Shown: piece by piece, positions 1-54,372 of the stretch | Layout of the letters: every line of letters begins with the position of its first letter | Numbering within the stretch: the stretch's first letter is position 1 | Origin: Arcobacter suis CECT 7833 | GTDB lineage: Bacteria; Campylobacterota; Campylobacteria; Campylobacterales; Arcobacteraceae | Direction of reading: 5' to 3' | NCBI RefSeq assembly: GCF_003544815.1 | Contig: NZ_CP032100.1 | Span: 1,860,001-1,924,000 of the forward strand | DNA length: 64,000 nt | Position numbers and translations under genes: made by a program | Notes under the pieces: model-generated | Told to the model about the DNA's origin: nothing | Database searches by the model: none | The model's input: the letters and a program-made list of their open reading frames with translations, nothing else

Positions 1-2210
1 CTCTCTTCTTTATCAGAAATTTCAATTATTCTTGCACTTCCAATATTTGAAGTTAAAATAATAATTGTATTTTTAAAATCAACTGTTACACCTTTGTTAT
101 CAGTTAATCTTCCATCATCTAAAACTTGTAATAAAATATTAAATACATCAGGATGAGCTTTTTCAACCTCATCAAATAAAATTACACTATAAGGTTTTCT
201 TCTAACAGCCTCTGTTAATTGACCGCCCTCTTCGTACCCAACATAACCTGGAGCTGCACCTACAAGTCTTGAAACAGCGTGTTTTTCCATATATTCACTC
301 ATATCAAATCTAATAAGTGATTTTGGGTCATCAAATAAGAATTTTGCTAAAGTTTTTGCACTTTCAGTTTTTCCAACTCCAGTTGGTCCTAAAAATAAGA
401 AACTTCCAATTGGTCTATTCGTTTCACTTAGTCCAGCTTTATTTCTTTTTATTGCTCGGCTAATTGCTTTTAATGCTTCATCTTGTCCTATTACATCTTT
501 TTTTAGAACTTCTTCAACCATTAAAACTTTTTGTTTTTCTGAGTCCATCATTTTATTAACAGGAATTCCTGTCCATCTTGAAACAATACTTGCAATTGCT
601 TCTTCATCAACAGAATTTCTTAAAAGAGTTCCCTCTTTTTGCATTCTTTTCCATTTTTCTTCATTCTCTTTTATTTTTGCTTCTAAAGTTGGAATTTCTC
701 CATACTCTATTTGAGCTGCTTTTTCAAAGTTTGATTCTCGTTTTGCGATATTTGCTCTATTTTTTAATTCATCAATTTTTACTTTTAACTCACTTGTTAT
801 GTTAAAAGTCTCTTTTTCATTTGCAAATCTTGCTTCTAAATTTTGTTTTTCTTCATTTTTATCGGCAAGTTCTTTTTCTATTTGAACAATTCTTTCTTCA
901 TTTTTTTTGCCCTCTTCCATTTTTAGAGCTTCTTTTTCAACATTTAAAGTTTGAATCTCTCTTTTTATAGAAGATAAGGCATTTGGTTCACTCTCAATTT
1001 GCATTTTAAGTTCAGCCGCTGCTTCATCTATTAAGTCAATTGCTTTATCTGGTAAAAATCTATCTGTAATGTATCTATTTGATAATTTTGCAGCTGCAAC
1101 CAATGCACTATCATTTATAGTTACATTATGGTGAGTTTCAAGTTTTTCTTTTATTCCTCTTAATATTTGCAAAGCTTCATTAACACTTGGTTCATTTACA
1201 TTTATTGGTTGAAATCTTCTTTGCATTGCTGTATCTTTTTCAAAATACTTTCTATACTCTTTTAAAGTTGTTGCACCAATTGTATGTAATTCACCCCTTG
1301 CTAATGATGGTTTTAAAATATTAGCTGCATCCATAGAACCTTCACTTGCACCTGCTCCAATGATTGTGTGAATCTCATCAATAAATAAAATTATATTTCC
1401 AGCTTTTTTAACTTCATCAATAACTGATTTTAGTCTATCTTCAAATTCACCTCTATATTTTGCACCTGCAATCATTGAACTCATATCTAAAGTAATTACT
1501 CTTTTATTTAATAGTGATGTAGGAACATCTTTATTTACTATTTTTTGAGCAAGACCTTCAGCGATTGCTGTTTTTCCAGTTCCTGGTTCTCCAATTAAAA
1601 TTGGATTGTTTTTTGTTTTTCTAATTAAGATTTGCATCATTCTGCTGATTTGTTCATCTCTTCCAATAACTGGGTCAAGAAGTCCATCAATTGCTTTTTT
1701 ATTTAAATCTATTCCATATTTATTTAAAGCTTCAAGATTTTCATCTCCACTATTACTATCAATAGTTTTCCCAGCACGCATTGCTTCAAGTTCTTTTTTT
1801 GCTTCTTTTAAATCTACATATTTTCCTAATACATCTTTGATTACAGAAGAATCAAGATTTGAAATAAGCCATGTATCAACAGCTATAAATTTATCTCCAA
1901 AACTTGCCATTAATCCTTCTGCATTTTGTAAGGAAGAAAGAAGATTTCTTGATAATTTTATACTCTCTTTTGTAACACTTGAAACACTTGCTAGTTTTGA
2001 AGTATATGATTTTGCTTCAAGTTCAATTGCTACTTTATTTACATTCATTTTATTTAATAACTGATTTAAAACCGAATTTGTATTTGATAACAATGCCCAA
2101 AGTAAATGTATTACTTCAACCTCTTGGTTTTTATTGTGTAAAGCTAAAGCTATACTTGAGTCTATTGTTTCTGTAAGTTGATTTGTTAGTTTTTCAAAAA
2201 TTTTATTCAT
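1..2210 (-). CDS. clpB: ClpB ATP-dependent protein disaggregase, 3' end beyond the window
   Basis: Hsp100 chaperone that works with DnaK to resolubilise aggregated protein in the cytoplasm. The frame is open from an ATG at 2208-2210 (after an AGGAG ribosome site) down to base 1, so the C-terminus is missing. Translation shows the N-terminal Clp repeat domain, a first AAA+ module with Walker A GEPGTGKT and Walker B ILFIDEIH, a long charged coiled-coil middle domain (typical of ClpB, absent from ClpA), and a second AAA+ module with GPTGVGKT and the following [14 protein letters not shown] segment. It is a single gene with its own promoter. The upstream sequence carries HspR- and HrcA-type operators (separate entries), so heat-shock control is likely. 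Family identity is certain; only the last part of the second AAA+ module is unseen. Confidence 0.97.
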
Positions 2211-2212
2211 AT

Positions 2213-2239
2213 CTAGCACTCCTTTAATTTAACTGCTAA
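2213..2239. promoter_or_regulatory. CIRCE-like HrcA operator at the clpB transcription start
   Basis: Left arm CTAGCACTC (2213-2221), nine-base spacer, right arm AACTGCTAA (2231-2239). The CIRCE consensus is TTAGCACTC-N9-GAGTGCTAA. Arms match 8 of 9 and 7 of 9 with the exact spacer length. It lies at or just after the predicted +1 and contains the ribosome-binding sequence. The match is imperfect, so HrcA binding is an inference. Confidence 0.55.
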
Positions 2240-2243
2240 TAAA

Positions 2244-2272
2244 ATTATATCACTTGAGTCAATGATTGTCAA
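2244..2272 (-). promoter_or_regulatory. Sigma-70 promoter of clpB
   Basis: Read on the minus strand there is a perfect -35 TTGACA (2272-2267), a 17-base spacer and a perfect -10 TATAAT (2249-2244). The predicted start of transcription lies near 2237, about 27 bases before the clpB ATG. A full -35 box is unusual in Campylobacterota, where sigma-70 promoters usually lack one. Confidence 0.85.
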
Positions 2273-2273
2273 G
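2253..2273. promoter_or_regulatory. HAIR-like HspR operator overlapping the clpB -35 box
   Basis: CTTGAGT (2253-2259), seven bases, then TGTCAAG (2267-2273). The known HspR site is CTTGAGT-N7-ACTCAAG. The left half matches fully and the right half matches 5 of 7. It covers the -35 box and much of the spacer, the place where HspR would exclude RNA polymerase. HspR control of clpB is known in Helicobacter and Campylobacter. Confidence 0.7.
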
Positions 2274-4421
2274 TTATATAATATAATCCTCTAAATCCTG
2301 ATTTTCTTTTATTGGTAAAACAATTACTAAAGAGCATCCTTTATAATTTTTTTTATCTTTAATAAATTCGATATTTTTAGCATAAATACTTCCTTTCATA
2401 TGTTCAACTACTATTTGGTGGGACATATAAAGCCCTATTCCTGTTCCTTGAGATTTGTGTTTTGTTGTAAAATAAGGATCAAATATTTTTGAAACTATTG
2501 TTTCATCAACTCCACCACCATTATCATTTACTTCTATAACACATCTTTTATTTTTAATAAAAGTTTTAATATTCATAAATCTTGCATTTACATCTTGTGT
2601 CATTAAAGCATCTTTTGCATTATTTATAATATTTACCAAAACTTGTAAAAATTCATTTGGATAACCATTTATAATCAAATCTTCATTTAAATGGGTTTCT
2701 ACTTGAATATTATGATTTTGTATACTTGATTTTAAAAGTTTCAACACTCTTAAAATACTCTCATTTATACAAAAGTCTTCTATCATTTTATCTGCTTTAA
2801 AAAAATTTCTAAAATCATCAATAGTTTTTGATAAATATTGAGTGTTTTCAACTATTAAATCCAAGGATTCATACAATCTTTCATCACTAATTTGATTAAA
2901 TTCTTTTTCAAATTTGATTCCACTAGCACAAGTACTAATTACACTTAATGGTTGTCTCCATTGGTGGGCAATATTTCCTATCATTTCTCCCATTGATGCC
3001 ATTTTTGATTGTTGAAAAAGTAATTTATCTTTAGCTTTTAATTCTGTTATATCTATAATTGTTGAAAGTTTTACTTTTTTTCCATTTAATTTAATAAATT
3101 TTTCTTGTCCTAAACAAGTATGTTTTATCCCTTTTACAATAATATCAAACTCATAAGGTAAAGTATTTTTTTTATAATTTTTTATTAATAAATCTTTATA
3201 TTTATCATCAATAAATTCTAATAGATCTTTTCCTATTAGCTCACTTTTAGTATTTAATTTTAGAAATTTTATAGCGACATTATTTGCATCAACACATATT
3301 CCTTTATCATGTATTACTATAACTTCCATTGTTGAGTTAAATAAAGATTTAAAACTACTCAAAGATGCTTCTAGGGAATCTTCTCTTTTATCTATTTCTA
3401 TTTTCATTTTATTAAAACTATTTAATAAAATATTAAATTCATTGTAATATGATTTTCTGATGTCAATATTATAATTTCCATTGGCAATACTTGCTGTAGT
3501 TTGTTGTAAATCATCAAAAGATTTAAAAATTCTTTTTGAAATTTTTAAAGATAAAAGTGTTGCAACTATTACAAAAGTTATCATACTAAAAATCATTCCA
3601 AAAATAATACTATTTAATGATTTTAATATAAGTTCATAACTTTCTCGTACAACTATTTTCCAACCTGTTTTTTCAATAGAAGTATAAGTTCCGTATTGCT
3701 CATTTTCAAATGAATTTGAATAAAACATTGCAAAGTCATAAGGTTCTAAAATATCAATCAATTCTGTAAATACTTTTTGACTTTTTTCGTTAAATCTTTG
3801 TAAAACTAAATCAGGATTATTTGGATTTAAAATTACAGTTCCACTACTATCAAAAATTTTAACCATATGAGTATTATCTTGATTTTTAAATCTTGAAATG
3901 AAATCAGAAATTTCTTTTAATTGAACCATTAAAACAACTACTTTATCATCAAGTCTAAAACTGTATGAAATTGCTGCTTCTTCATCAACTGTTGATAAAA
4001 AAACATTTGACCAATAATCATCATTTTCTTTAATACCTTTGAAATATTCTTGATTTGAATAATCAAAACCTTTATAAATTTTCAAATTAGTCGCAGCATA
4101 AAAATCTTCTATAATTCCATCTTTATTTAAGACTAAAATACTAGAAATATTTGTATTTGTATCAACAATATTTTTTAACAATGTATTATTATCTTGATAA
4201 TTACTTTTTATATAAAAAGAGATTTTATATATTTTAGATAAAAACTTATCCATTTCAGATTCAATTTGATACAAAATTTGTTTTTGATTATGCTGGATAA
4301 TATTTAATTTAGAAAAATAAAAGTTTATCATTGCTATTAATCCAACACTAATTGCAATAAAAATTGAAAATGATATTAAGATTATTAAAATCTCTTTTTT
4401 TAAGCTTTTTTCTTTTCTCAT
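2274..4421 (-). CDS. Sensor histidine kinase with periplasmic Cache domain and PAS domain
   Basis: Membrane sensor kinase, 715 residues. Order: membrane segment about 12-34, extracytoplasmic double-Cache-like region about 40-265, second membrane segment about 270-292, HAMP about 295-345, PAS about 355-460, then an H-box NIAHQWRQPL with the phospho-accepting His486. The ATPase domain has N-box NIINNAKDAL, G1 DNGGG and G2 GTGIGL, so the kinase looks intact. The start codon overlaps the stop of the upstream periplasmic binding-protein gene by 4 bases, so the two are probably translated together and the binding protein may present ligand to the Cache region. No response regulator is adjacent. Its stop codon lies at the edge of the clpB promoter region. 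Confidence 0.93.
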   Translation of the reverse strand: MRKEKSLKKEILIILISFSIFIAISVGLIAMINFYFSKLNIIQHNQKQILYQIESEMDKFLSKIYKISFYIKSNYQDNNTLLKNIVDTNTNISSILVLNKDGIIEDFYAATNLKIYKGFDYSNQEYFKGIKENDDYWSNVFLSTVDEEAAISYSFRLDDKVVVLMVQLKEISDFISRFKNQDNTHMVKIFDSSGTVILNPNNPDLVLQRFNEKSQKVFTELIDILEPYDFAMFYSNSFENEQYGTYTSIEKTGWKIVVRESYELILKSLNSIIFGMIFSMITFVIVATLLSLKISKRIFKSFDDLQQTTASIANGNYNIDIRKSYYNEFNILLNSFNKMKIEIDKREDSLEASLSSFKSLFNSTMEVIVIHDKGICVDANNVAIKFLKLNTKSELIGKDLLEFIDDKYKDLLIKNYKKNTLPYEFDIIVKGIKHTCLGQEKFIKLNGKKVKLSTIIDITELKAKDKLLFQQSKMASMGEMIGNIAHQWRQPLSVISTCASGIKFEKEFNQISDERLYESLDLIVENTQYLSKTIDDFRNFFKADKMIEDFCINESILRVLKLLKSSIQNHNIQVETHLNEDLIINGYPNEFLQVLVNIINNAKDALMTQDVNARFMNIKTFIKNKRCVIEVNDNGGGVDETIVSKIFDPYFTTKHKSQGTGIGLYMSHQIVVEHMKGSIYAKNIEFIKDKKNYKGCSLVIVLPIKENQDLEDYII

Positions 4422-46346: not shown

Positions 46347-46619
46347 ATGCCCAAAGTAGTTACACCTTTAAATGAAAGAAAAATTATAAATGCAAAACCT
46401 AAAGAATCAAATTACACTTTAACAGATGGAAATGGTTTACAATTATTAATAAAATCATCAGGTGTAAAAATTTGGGAATTTGTTTTCACTTCTCCAATAA
46501 CCAAAAAAAGAAGAAAAAAGACTTTTGGTAGTTATCCTATTATTACCTTAGCAAAAGCAAGAACATTAAAAAATGAATACTTAACTCTTATATCTAATGG
46601 TATAGACCCTGTTGAATGA
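46347..46619 (+). pseudogene. Tyrosine integrase, N-terminal fragment cut by an IS
   Basis: About 90 residues of the DUF4102 (P4-type integrase N-terminal, arm-binding) domain: KIINAKPKESNYTLTDGNGLQLLIKSSG, then KKRRKKTFGSYPIITLAKAR. The frame ends after GIDPVE because the IS end (TGATCC...) supplies the stop TGA at 46617-46619. The catalytic domain (R...HxxR...Y) is missing and is not found elsewhere in the window. Position 203 bases after the ssrA 3' end fits an integrase of an ssrA-targeting element. An AAGGATA ribosome site precedes the ATG. Confidence 0.9.
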
Positions 46620-46676
46620 TCCGGCTACACTAATTCATACTTGGAATTTAAAAACTTCTAAGTTAAAATAATAAGT

Positions 46677-47955
46677 ATGAAAGAAGTAGAAAAAATGAGA
46701 AATAGTAAATATACTAAAGAGTTTAGAGATGAGACTGTTCACTTAATTTTGAATAGTAAAAAGTCAGCAATGCAAATTGCAGCATAGAACGTAGCGTTAG
46801 CAAGAAAAGATCTTGGAATAAATGATAAAACAATTTATAATTGGATTAAAGTTTATAAAAAAGAGAATAATATAACAACTCCTATTGATGAAACTAAAAA
46901 TCAATCTAAATCCTCACAACAAGAATTAGTGGCTGAACTAAAACAGCTACGAGCAGAGAATAAATTACTCAAACAAGAAAGAGATATTCTAAAAAAGGCA
47001 ACAGCATACGCAGCATTTGAAACTCTATCAAAGTATGCTTGGATAAAAGAGCATAGAAAGAGTTTCAATATAAAACTTATGTGTAAAGTTTTTAAAGTTG
47101 ATAAAAGTAGCTATTACAATTGGGTTAAAAATGGTTGTGTAATTCAAAAAGTTGATGAGAAACTTAATGAACTAATTGAAATAATATTTCTTCAATCAAG
47201 ACAAACATATGGTACAAGAAGGATAAAAGATAAACTTCTTGAAAGATATGGTGTAATAGTTTCAAGAAGACGAATTAGAAATATTCTAAAACAATTAGGA
47301 TTGTTTGTAAAAATGAAACGAAGATTTAAAGTTATGACAACAGATTCAAATCATAATTTACCAATAGCTCCCAATATTTTAAATAGAGATTTCTATGCTT
47401 CAAAAGTTGATGAAAAATATGTAGGCGATAGAAGTATTAATAAAAAGATATTAAATATATCTTTTTATTAATACGCGTTATATTCCAACAAGTGAAGGAT
47501 GGTTGTATCTTGCAACAGTTATTGATTTATATTCAAGAAAAATAGTTGGTTGGAGTATGGATGAAACAATGAAAGTTTCACTTGTAAATGATGCTTTAAA
47601 GATGGCTCTTATTTCAAGAAATCCAGAAAAAGGACTAATTTGGCATACAGATAGAGGAAGTCAATATGCTTCTTATGAACATAAAGATTTACTCAAAAGA
47701 CATGGAATAATTCAAAGTATGAGTCGAAAAGGGAATTGTCATGATAATGCAGTTGCAGAAAGTTTTTTCCATACATTAAAAACAGAATTAATCCATCATG
47801 AAATTTATCATACAAAAGAACAAGCAAAAAGATCAATATTTGAATATATAGAAGTGTTTTATAATAGAGAAAGAAGTCATAGTGCAAATAACAATTTATC
47901 ACCAGTAGAGTTTGAAGAAAAACAAAAATTGTTACAAAAAGAAATTGCTGCTTAG
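46677..47955 (+). pseudogene. IS3-family transposase OrfA/OrfB, copy 1, interrupted
   Basis: OrfA starts at 46677 (KYTKEFRDETVHLILNS) but hits TAG at 46785-46787, after which the same frame continues with a normal helix-turn-helix and leucine-zipper (LKQLRAENKLLKQERDILKK). The extra C at 47029 fuses OrfA to OrfB in frame. OrfB then reads to 47471, where a 41-bp palindrome supplies the stop TAA directly after the first DDE aspartate (KYVGD). The remaining DDE core continues as a separate frame (47503-47955) with [10 protein letters not shown] and [13 protein letters not shown] (second D and E). The transposase cannot be made as one chain. Confidence 0.9.
47434..47474. repeat. 41-bp palindrome inside the IS transposase, copy 1
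   Basis: Arms GTATTAATAAAAAGATAT (47434-47451) and its exact complement (47457-47474), 5-base loop. It lies between codons for VGD and for TRYIPT, which are adjacent (VGD-ITYIP type) in intact IS3 transposases, so it is an insertion. The same palindrome is in copy 2. Confidence 0.85.
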
Positions 47956-47995
47956 GGATTATAATTTCTGAGTATGTTTTAGGGTTGACAGATCA

Positions 47996-52913: not shown

Positions 52914-52986
52914 TTTTACCTCTTATAAGTTTAATCCTAATGATTATGATCTGTCAACCCTAAAACATACTCAGAAATTATAATCC

Positions 52987-54264
52987 CTAAGCAGCAATTT
53001 CTTTTTGTAACAATTTTTGTTTTTCTTCAAACTCTACTGGTGATAAATTGTTATTTGCACTATGACTTCTTTCTCTATTATAAAACACTTCTATATATTC
53101 AAATATTGATCTTTTTGCTTGTTCTTTTGTATGATAAATTTCATGATGGATTAATTCTGTTTTTAATGTATGGAAAAAACTTTCTGCAACTGCATTATCA
53201 TGACAATTCCCTTTTCGACTCATACTTTGAATTATTCCATGTCTTTTGAGTAAATCTTTATGTTCATAAGAAGCATATTGACTTCCTCTATCTGTATGCC
53301 AAATTAGTCCTTTTTCTGGATTTCTTGAAATAAGAGCCATCTTTAAAGCATCATTTACAAGTGAAACTTTCATTGTTTCATCCATACTCCAACCAACTAT
53401 TTTTCTTGAATATAAATCAATAACTGTTGCAAGATACAACCATCCTTCACTTGTTGGAATATAACGCGTATTAATAAAAAGATATATTTAATATCTTTTT
53501 ATTAATACTTCTATCGCCTACATATTTTTCATCAACTTTTGAAGCATAGAAATCTCTATTTAAAATATTGGGAGCTATTGGTAAATTATGATTTGAATCT
53601 GTTGTCATAACTTTAAATCTTCGTTTCATTTTTACAAACAATCCTAATTGTTTTAGAATATTTCTAATTCGTCTTCTTGAAACTATTACACCATATCTTT
53701 CAAGAAGTTTATCTTTTATCCTTCTTGTACCATATGTTTGTCTTGATTGAAGAAATATTATTTCAATTAGTTCATTAAGTTTCTCATCAACTTTTTGAAT
53801 TACACAACCATTTTTAACCCAATTGTAATAGCTACTTTTATCAACTTTAAAAACTTTACACATAAGTTTTATATTGAAACTCTTTCTATGCTCTTTTATC
53901 CAAGCATACTTTATAGAGTTTCAAATGCTGCGTATGCTGTTGCCTTTTTTAGAATATCTCTTTCTTGTTTGAGTAATTTATTCTCTGCTCGTAGCTGTTT
54001 TAGTTCAGCCACTAATTCTTGTTGTGAGGATTTAGATTGATTTTTAGTTTCATCAATAGGAGTTGTTATATTATTTTCTTTTTTATAAACTTTAATCCAA
54101 TTATAAATTGTTTTATCATTTATTCCAAGATCTTTTCTTGCTAACGCTACGTTCTATGCTGCAATTTGCATTGCTGACTTTTTACTATTCAAAATTAAGT
54201 GAACAGTCTCATCTCTAAACTCTTTAGTATATTTACTATTTCTCATTTTTTCTACTTCTTTCAT
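52987..54264 (-). pseudogene. IS3-family transposase OrfA/OrfB, copy 2, interrupted
   Basis: Same disabled layout as copy 1: OrfA start at 54264, internal TAG after MQIAA, OrfA ending at the TAA of CTATAA (normal OrfA/OrfB overlap, since the extra C is absent here). OrfB is split by the palindrome at 53468-53508 after the first catalytic Asp, and the rest of the DDE core lies at 52987-53439. OrfB would need the usual -1 frameshift as well as passage through TAG and the hairpin stop. Confidence 0.9.
53468..53508. repeat. 41-bp palindrome inside the IS transposase, copy 2
   Basis: Same arms GTATTAATAAAAAGATAT and complement as in copy 1, at the equivalent place after the first DDE aspartate. 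Confidence 0.85.
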
Positions 54265-54372
54265 ACTTATTATTTTAACTTAGAAGTTTTTAAATTCCAA
54301 GTATGAATTAGTGTAGCCGGATCAAGATAAGATGGGAACTATCTCTTAAACAGCGAAAGGAAAATAAAAACA

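Follow-up and report, generated by a model that had tools for sequence, protein, structure and literature searches.

A putative composite HspR/HrcA operator on the clpB promoter of Arcobacter suis is conserved across the Arcobacteraceae

Dual control of heat-shock promoters by the repressors HspR and HrcA is known from two pathogens, where it acts on groESL and hrcA-grpE-dnaK. In Campylobacter jejuni, groESL and hrcA-grpE-dnaK are under cooperative HspR and HrcA control, the two proteins bind each other, and footprints place HspR over the core promoter of clpB and HrcA over +1 of groES and hrcA (PMC7464140). In Helicobacter pylori, groES and hrcA are repressed by both proteins, with HspR upstream and HrcA near or over the -35/-10 region and the start, and the proteins bind independently in vitro (PMC6032397). 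The Bifidobacterium stress regulon uses the same repressors, with a HAIR at clpB and CIRCE at groES, groEL and hrcA, and its regulon table contains no gene with both sites (PMC9004370). clpB is the chaperone gene whose loss affects heat survival of C. jejuni most (PMC12131804), where it is reported to be under HspR only, bound over the core promoter (PMC7464140, PMC12131804). In the open-access literature, which leaves subscription papers outside the scope, we found neither a report of clpB as a dual HspR/HrcA target nor any account of Arcobacter heat-shock operators. Here we report sequence evidence that clpB is probably a further dual target in nearly all Arcobacteraceae, in a different geometry.

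The window analysed is a 64,000-nucleotide stretch of the complete genome of Arcobacter suis (2.64 Mb, roughly 26% GC; Arcobacteraceae). It contains the 5' part of clpB, whose truncated product matches TIGR03346 with 1032 bits. The start codon was assigned to the ATG at 2210, a position kept in relatives; an alternative GTG at 2219 falls within the right arm of the CIRCE. Read along the minus strand, the order of elements is CTTGACA-atcattg-ACTCAAG-TGA-TATAAT-TTTA-TTAGCAGTT-aaattaaag-GAGTGCTAG-AT-ATG (clpB), and the features of the region are as follows.

3..2210, minus strand: clpB, first 736 codons in the window (864 aa frame in the genome), start ATG at 2210
2213..2239, minus strand: CIRCE, predicted HrcA operator; TTAGCAGTT at 2239-2231, N9 aaattaaag, GAGTGCTAG at 2221-2213
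2219..2225, minus strand: Shine-Dalgarno AAAGGAG, with the CIRCE right arm beginning at its GAG
2237, minus strand: predicted transcription start (A), placed from the -10 spacing alone, within the CIRCE left arm
2244..2252, minus strand: extended -10 TGATATAAT; TATAAT at 2249-2244, TG at 2252-2251, 17-base spacer from the -35
2253..2273, minus strand: HAIR, predicted HspR operator; CTTGACA at 2273-2267, N7 atcattg, ACTCAAG at 2259-2253
2267..2272, minus strand: -35 TTGACA, common to the HAIR left arm
2274..4421, minus strand: sensor histidine kinase-like gene (named from sequence reading only), the upstream neighbour of clpB

A first-pass annotation of this DNA had described a consensus TTGACA-N17-TATAAT promoter, overlapped upstream by a HAIR-like and downstream by a CIRCE-like repeat. 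The promoter is as described and has, in addition, the TG of an extended -10. The HAIR does have the exact 7-base spacer and matches CTTGAGT-N7-ACTCAAG at 12/14 positions, but it is not merely upstream: the -35 is part of its left arm, and the right arm sits within the -35/-10 spacer. Both mismatches lie in the left arm, at exactly the positions imposed by TTGACA. The downstream repeat proved to be a CIRCE with the exact 9-base spacer, matching TTAGCACTC-N9-GAGTGCTAA at 15/18 positions (mostly 16 in relatives), its left arm being imperfect at positions 7-9. The two sites are separated by 13 bp, or 37 bp from centre to centre, and a purine +1 at about 2237 would give a 5' UTR of about 27 nt. 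Several parts serve twice: the HAIR left arm is the -35, the CIRCE left arm is the predicted start region and the CIRCE right arm is the ribosome-binding site. The stop codon of the neighbouring gene abuts the HAIR, leaving no free space upstream of the clpB control elements, and in relatives the operator is kept even where bases further upstream differ.

This layout resembles C. jejuni groESL and hrcA-grpE-dnaK in having the same repressors, both sites at one promoter, a HAIR upstream and a CIRCE over +1. However, HspR binds upstream of the core promoter at the C. jejuni dual promoters, as it does in H. pylori, whereas at clpB of the Arcobacteraceae the -35 is part of the HAIR and the core promoter carries both sites. 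The gene concerned also differs, being clpB here but groESL and hrcA-grpE-dnaK in C. jejuni and groES and hrcA in H. pylori. That HspR controls clpB in related genera, as the annotation had stated, is documented for C. jejuni (PMC7464140), and the placement over the core promoter is alike; to this the Arcobacteraceae add a conserved CIRCE over +1 and the ribosome-binding site. Unlike in the Bifidobacterium regulon, HAIR and CIRCE meet at a single gene.

Chance occurrence of the motifs was assessed within the window, where the clpB promoter is the sole exact (6/6) instance of TTGACA-N17-TATAAT. By chance, 64 kb should hold 0.09 perfect 5+5 HAIR cores and 0.47 CIRCE cores with at most one mismatch. 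The best matches in about 3,850 random 128-bp stretches were 11/14 for HAIR (9 cases) and 12/18 for CIRCE (25 cases); the adjacent scores of 12 and 15 at clpB are thus beyond that null. Genome-wide scans relaxed to two mismatches gave HAIR and CIRCE counts at background, with no excess. The strong evidence is therefore conservation, not motif match, and regulons were read from the promoters of known genes instead.

Both repressor genes are present in A. suis, as the annotation's proposal demands. hspR follows cbpA (L001:1345-1734, 129 aa) and its product matches NF047375 with 113 bits, above the cut-off. hrcA precedes grpE-dnaK (L003:2065-2868, 267 aa); the product scores 245.8 bits against the HrcA family model NF003033, just below the cut-off of 248, and its N-terminal, DNA-binding half is homologous to the solved HrcA structure 1stz (E 1.8e-11). 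The Pfam HrcA model PF01628 has no match in the A. suis genome, but to read this as absence of hrcA, and hence as a refutation of dual control, would be wrong; the NF003033 match together with the position before grpE-dnaK settled its presence.

We then examined 89 Arcobacteraceae genomes at least 90% complete, of which hspR is missing from 12 and hrcA from 2; the clpB promoter could be read in 85. A CIRCE is found at 83/85 of these promoters, neither repeat has been lost from close relatives of A. suis, and in all 73 promoters that bear a HAIR the offset from HAIR to CIRCE (start to start) is 33-35 bases. Among these 73, TATAAT occurs in 68 and TG in 51, with a -35/-10 spacer of 17 or 18. The combinations 17+4 (36/40 promoters) and 18+3 (10/33) both lead to an offset of 34, so that changes in the spacer are partly compensated downstream and the offset remains close to 34 (permutation P 0.002, ignoring shared ancestry). 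The arms of the CIRCE at clpB hold 1.68 and 1.93 bits per column, the spacer 0.92.

A broader set of 77 named clpB loci of Campylobacterota was also compared, and the genomes behind 50 of them were searched for repressor genes. HAIR and CIRCE occur together at clpB only in Arcobacteraceae, and these composite genomes all carry both genes; four Arcobacteraceae in the set are CIRCE-only at clpB, all with hrcA and without hspR. A HAIR over the -35 without a CIRCE is found in Sulfurospirillum, Sulfurovum, Nitratiruptor and some Sulfurimonas relatives. Outside the Arcobacteraceae, a CIRCE at clpB is missing from the genomes that lack hrcA and also from several that have it. The simplest reading would be that clpB was first under HspR control and that the CIRCE was a later addition in Arcobacteraceae.

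The presence of the HAIR follows that of hspR. A HAIR in position at clpB is found in 73/74 genomes with hspR and in 0/11 without (Fisher p 5.6e-13, ignoring shared ancestry). The hspR-less genomes represent about four lineages, and the ClpB tree requires four changes, forced by supported branches. In six of the seven hspR-less clpB promoters of group g7, TTGACA is kept and ACTCAAG is gone; retention of the -35 with loss of the other HAIR arm, seen in most genomes without hspR, separates what the promoter requires of these bases from what HspR requires and argues that this arm is there for HspR. Given a layout kept family-wide and a HAIR that vanishes with hspR, both sites at clpB are very likely real operators. 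One might suppose instead that an unusually perfect promoter (TTGACA with TCAAGTG next to an extended -10) produced the HAIR-like repeat incidentally and that it is no HspR site, since its left arm CTTGACA includes the -35 and deviates from the HAIR consensus exactly where TTGACA fixes it. We regard this as very improbable: besides the g7 promoters and the tracking of hspR, the HAIR arms hold 2.00 and 1.74 bits per column compared with 0.61 in the spacer, and the arm at 1.74 is the right one, ACT[CA]AA, where no promoter element is needed.

The only genome with hspR and no HAIR at clpB, G089, comes from an assembly with 7% contamination and also lacks a HAIR at its hrcA promoter; its hspR is probably foreign. 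An 11/14 "HAIR" in G090 was rejected, since it overlaps the CIRCE right arm by coincidence and lies off the promoter position. G097, 99% complete and without hspR, has a HAIR at hrcA (L343) and none at clpB; it may have lost hspR recently, or hspR may be missing through an assembly gap. Four genomes of a reduced-genome genus (G083-G086, 1.3-1.5 Mb) lack hspR, and two of the four have no detectable hrcA. Both sites are missing from two of its three readable clpB promoters (L320-L322): G084, of the two hrcA-less genomes the one whose clpB promoter could be read, has no clpB CIRCE, and G083 has hrcA yet no clpB CIRCE.

We consider it highly probable that clpB is driven by one strong sigma-70 promoter bearing a composite operator for two repressors, with HspR acting at the HAIR, HrcA at the CIRCE, and both repressing. 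HspR would cover the -35 and the -35/-10 spacer, HrcA would cover +1 and the ribosome-binding site, and either could block RNA polymerase. Because the site centres are 37 bp apart, the two proteins would probably be bound together. Cooperative occupancy seems likely, and the fixed offset of 33-35 is suggestive of it; 37 bp corresponds to about 3.5 turns, hence to opposite faces of the helix, and geometry alone does not favour contact between HspR and HrcA. Heat or misfolded protein would reduce the activity of either repressor and so lift part or all of the repression. As in relatives, the signal would reach HspR through DnaK/CbpA-type co-repressors, and HrcA would respond both via GroE and by being thermolabile itself. 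Once derepressed, the consensus promoter would deliver a strong burst of ClpB.

The first-pass annotation had suggested dual or hand-over repression at this promoter. Dual repression is supported by the presence of both genes, the conserved spacing and the tracking of hspR by the HAIR, but a timed hand-over found no support. The hand-over to which the genomes point is evolutionary: hspR-less lineages mostly appear to keep clpB under the CIRCE alone. The Arcobacteraceae also offer a natural experiment, with HspR and HrcA together, HrcA alone and degenerate intermediates, in how repressors replace one another, and their clpB promoter is a clear example of rewired bacterial heat-shock control.

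Within A. suis, a full CIRCE is found at four promoters: groES, htpG, hrcA-grpE-dnaK and clpB. The annotation's expectation that the same two repeats would precede groES, dnaK and cbpA holds for hrcA-grpE-dnaK, where the clpB arrangement recurs, the HAIR overlying the -35 and the CIRCE following 34 bases on. It fails for cbpA-hspR, where there is a HAIR only, and holds in part at groES, where a CIRCE lies at +1 but the HAIR-like repeat further upstream is weak. A near-perfect CIRCE without a HAIR lies before htpG (genome positions 1789591-1789617, L084) and is kept through the Arcobacteraceae (L178-L207); htpG is likely an HrcA-only target.

The CIRCE left arm at clpB is weakened in most of the family, reading GTT or ATT in place of CTC, and the affinity of HrcA for this site may be modest as a result. 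In 66/83 clpB promoters the right arm lies at most 6 nt from the ATG and supplies the Shine-Dalgarno. A C at left-arm position 7 is found in 0/66 of these and in 17/17 promoters with a separate Shine-Dalgarno. From this it could be argued that HspR is the working repressor and that the CIRCE is weak or vestigial, retained mainly as a ribosome-binding site, which would fit the HspR-only control of C. jejuni clpB (PMC7464140, PMC12131804). Such a reading is improbable in view of three observations. The left arm TTAGCA, unneeded for the Shine-Dalgarno, is itself conserved (positions 1, 2, 4, 5 and 6 at 1.84-2.00 bits, position 3 at 1.63). In the 17 promoters from which the Shine-Dalgarno has moved away, the CIRCE persists with a left arm nearer consensus. 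Finally, the same GTT left arm occurs at hrcA-grpE-dnaK, an HrcA target in C. jejuni.

If HrcA does act at clpB, as we favour, the weak arm calls for another account. One, to which we give about an even chance, is that it avoids a strong 5' UTR hairpin that would hide the Shine-Dalgarno in the right arm, symmetry being traded for translation. The distribution of the position-7 C agrees with this, the 17 promoters with C including 7 with hspR and a HAIR. Folding of the natural leaders, for which +1 had to be assumed, gave means of -3.2 kcal/mol with overlapping and -9.8 kcal/mol with separate Shine-Dalgarno, and the right-arm GAG was unpaired at 0.50 and 0.09, respectively, under the same assumed +1; the structures are thus weak in the first group, whereas the second forms strong CIRCE hairpins. 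Moreover, in G116 and group g16 the stronger arm and a separate Shine-Dalgarno occur together at clpB, and hrcA stays weak-armed. Against this, the Shine-Dalgarno has moved in only two to three independent lineages, and in most of the family the hrcA promoters share the weak left arm, even with a right arm located away from the start codon. Overlap with the Shine-Dalgarno as a full account of the weak arm was ruled out on this last ground. The weak hrcA arm suggests that beside HspR a weak half-site for HrcA is acceptable or advantageous.

A second account, possible but in our judgement somewhat short of even odds, is that at composite operators generally the weak arm tunes HrcA to bind stably only beside HspR, making repression co-dependent. 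Weak arms are found at both composite operators, clpB and hrcA, the latter also with GTT, and the CIRCEs of groES and htpG have CTC or CTT; after loss of hspR, the arms at clpB and hrcA read CTC, CTT or CTA in most lineages. The C. jejuni proteins stimulate each other's binding (PMC7464140). The hrcA promoter of hspR-less g7 genomes, which has no HAIR, often carries a second CIRCE about 65-75 bp upstream, which would fit co-dependence. The seven clpB promoters that have hspR, a HAIR and a stronger arm speak against it. Each of these two accounts is compatible with the composite operator, and the family also bears on how operator, promoter and ribosome-binding site share the same bases.

Two-CIRCE hrcA promoters in hspR-less genomes are those of L130, L136, L211, L212, L352 and L353, with the upper CIRCE about 75 bp upstream. 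In other genomes the position of the upper CIRCE holds nothing or a degenerate repeat; in groups g8, g12, g15 and g16, part-degenerate CIRCE-like repeats lie upstream beside a HAIR whose state varies from intact to degenerate. We put forward, tentatively and as rather unlikely in its entirety, that HrcA binding was weakened so that repression needs both proteins, and that repeated loss of HspR was answered by restoration and duplication of the CIRCE. The genomes would then display a stepwise repressor swap at several stages, within a compact operator built of double-duty parts.

Elsewhere in the window, two identical inverted IS3-like copies of about 1.38 kb (46617-47995 and 52947-54324) flank DNA methyltransferase, helicase/restriction-like and resolvase-like genes, named from their translations. 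The segment resembles a composite transposon carrying a restriction-modification system.
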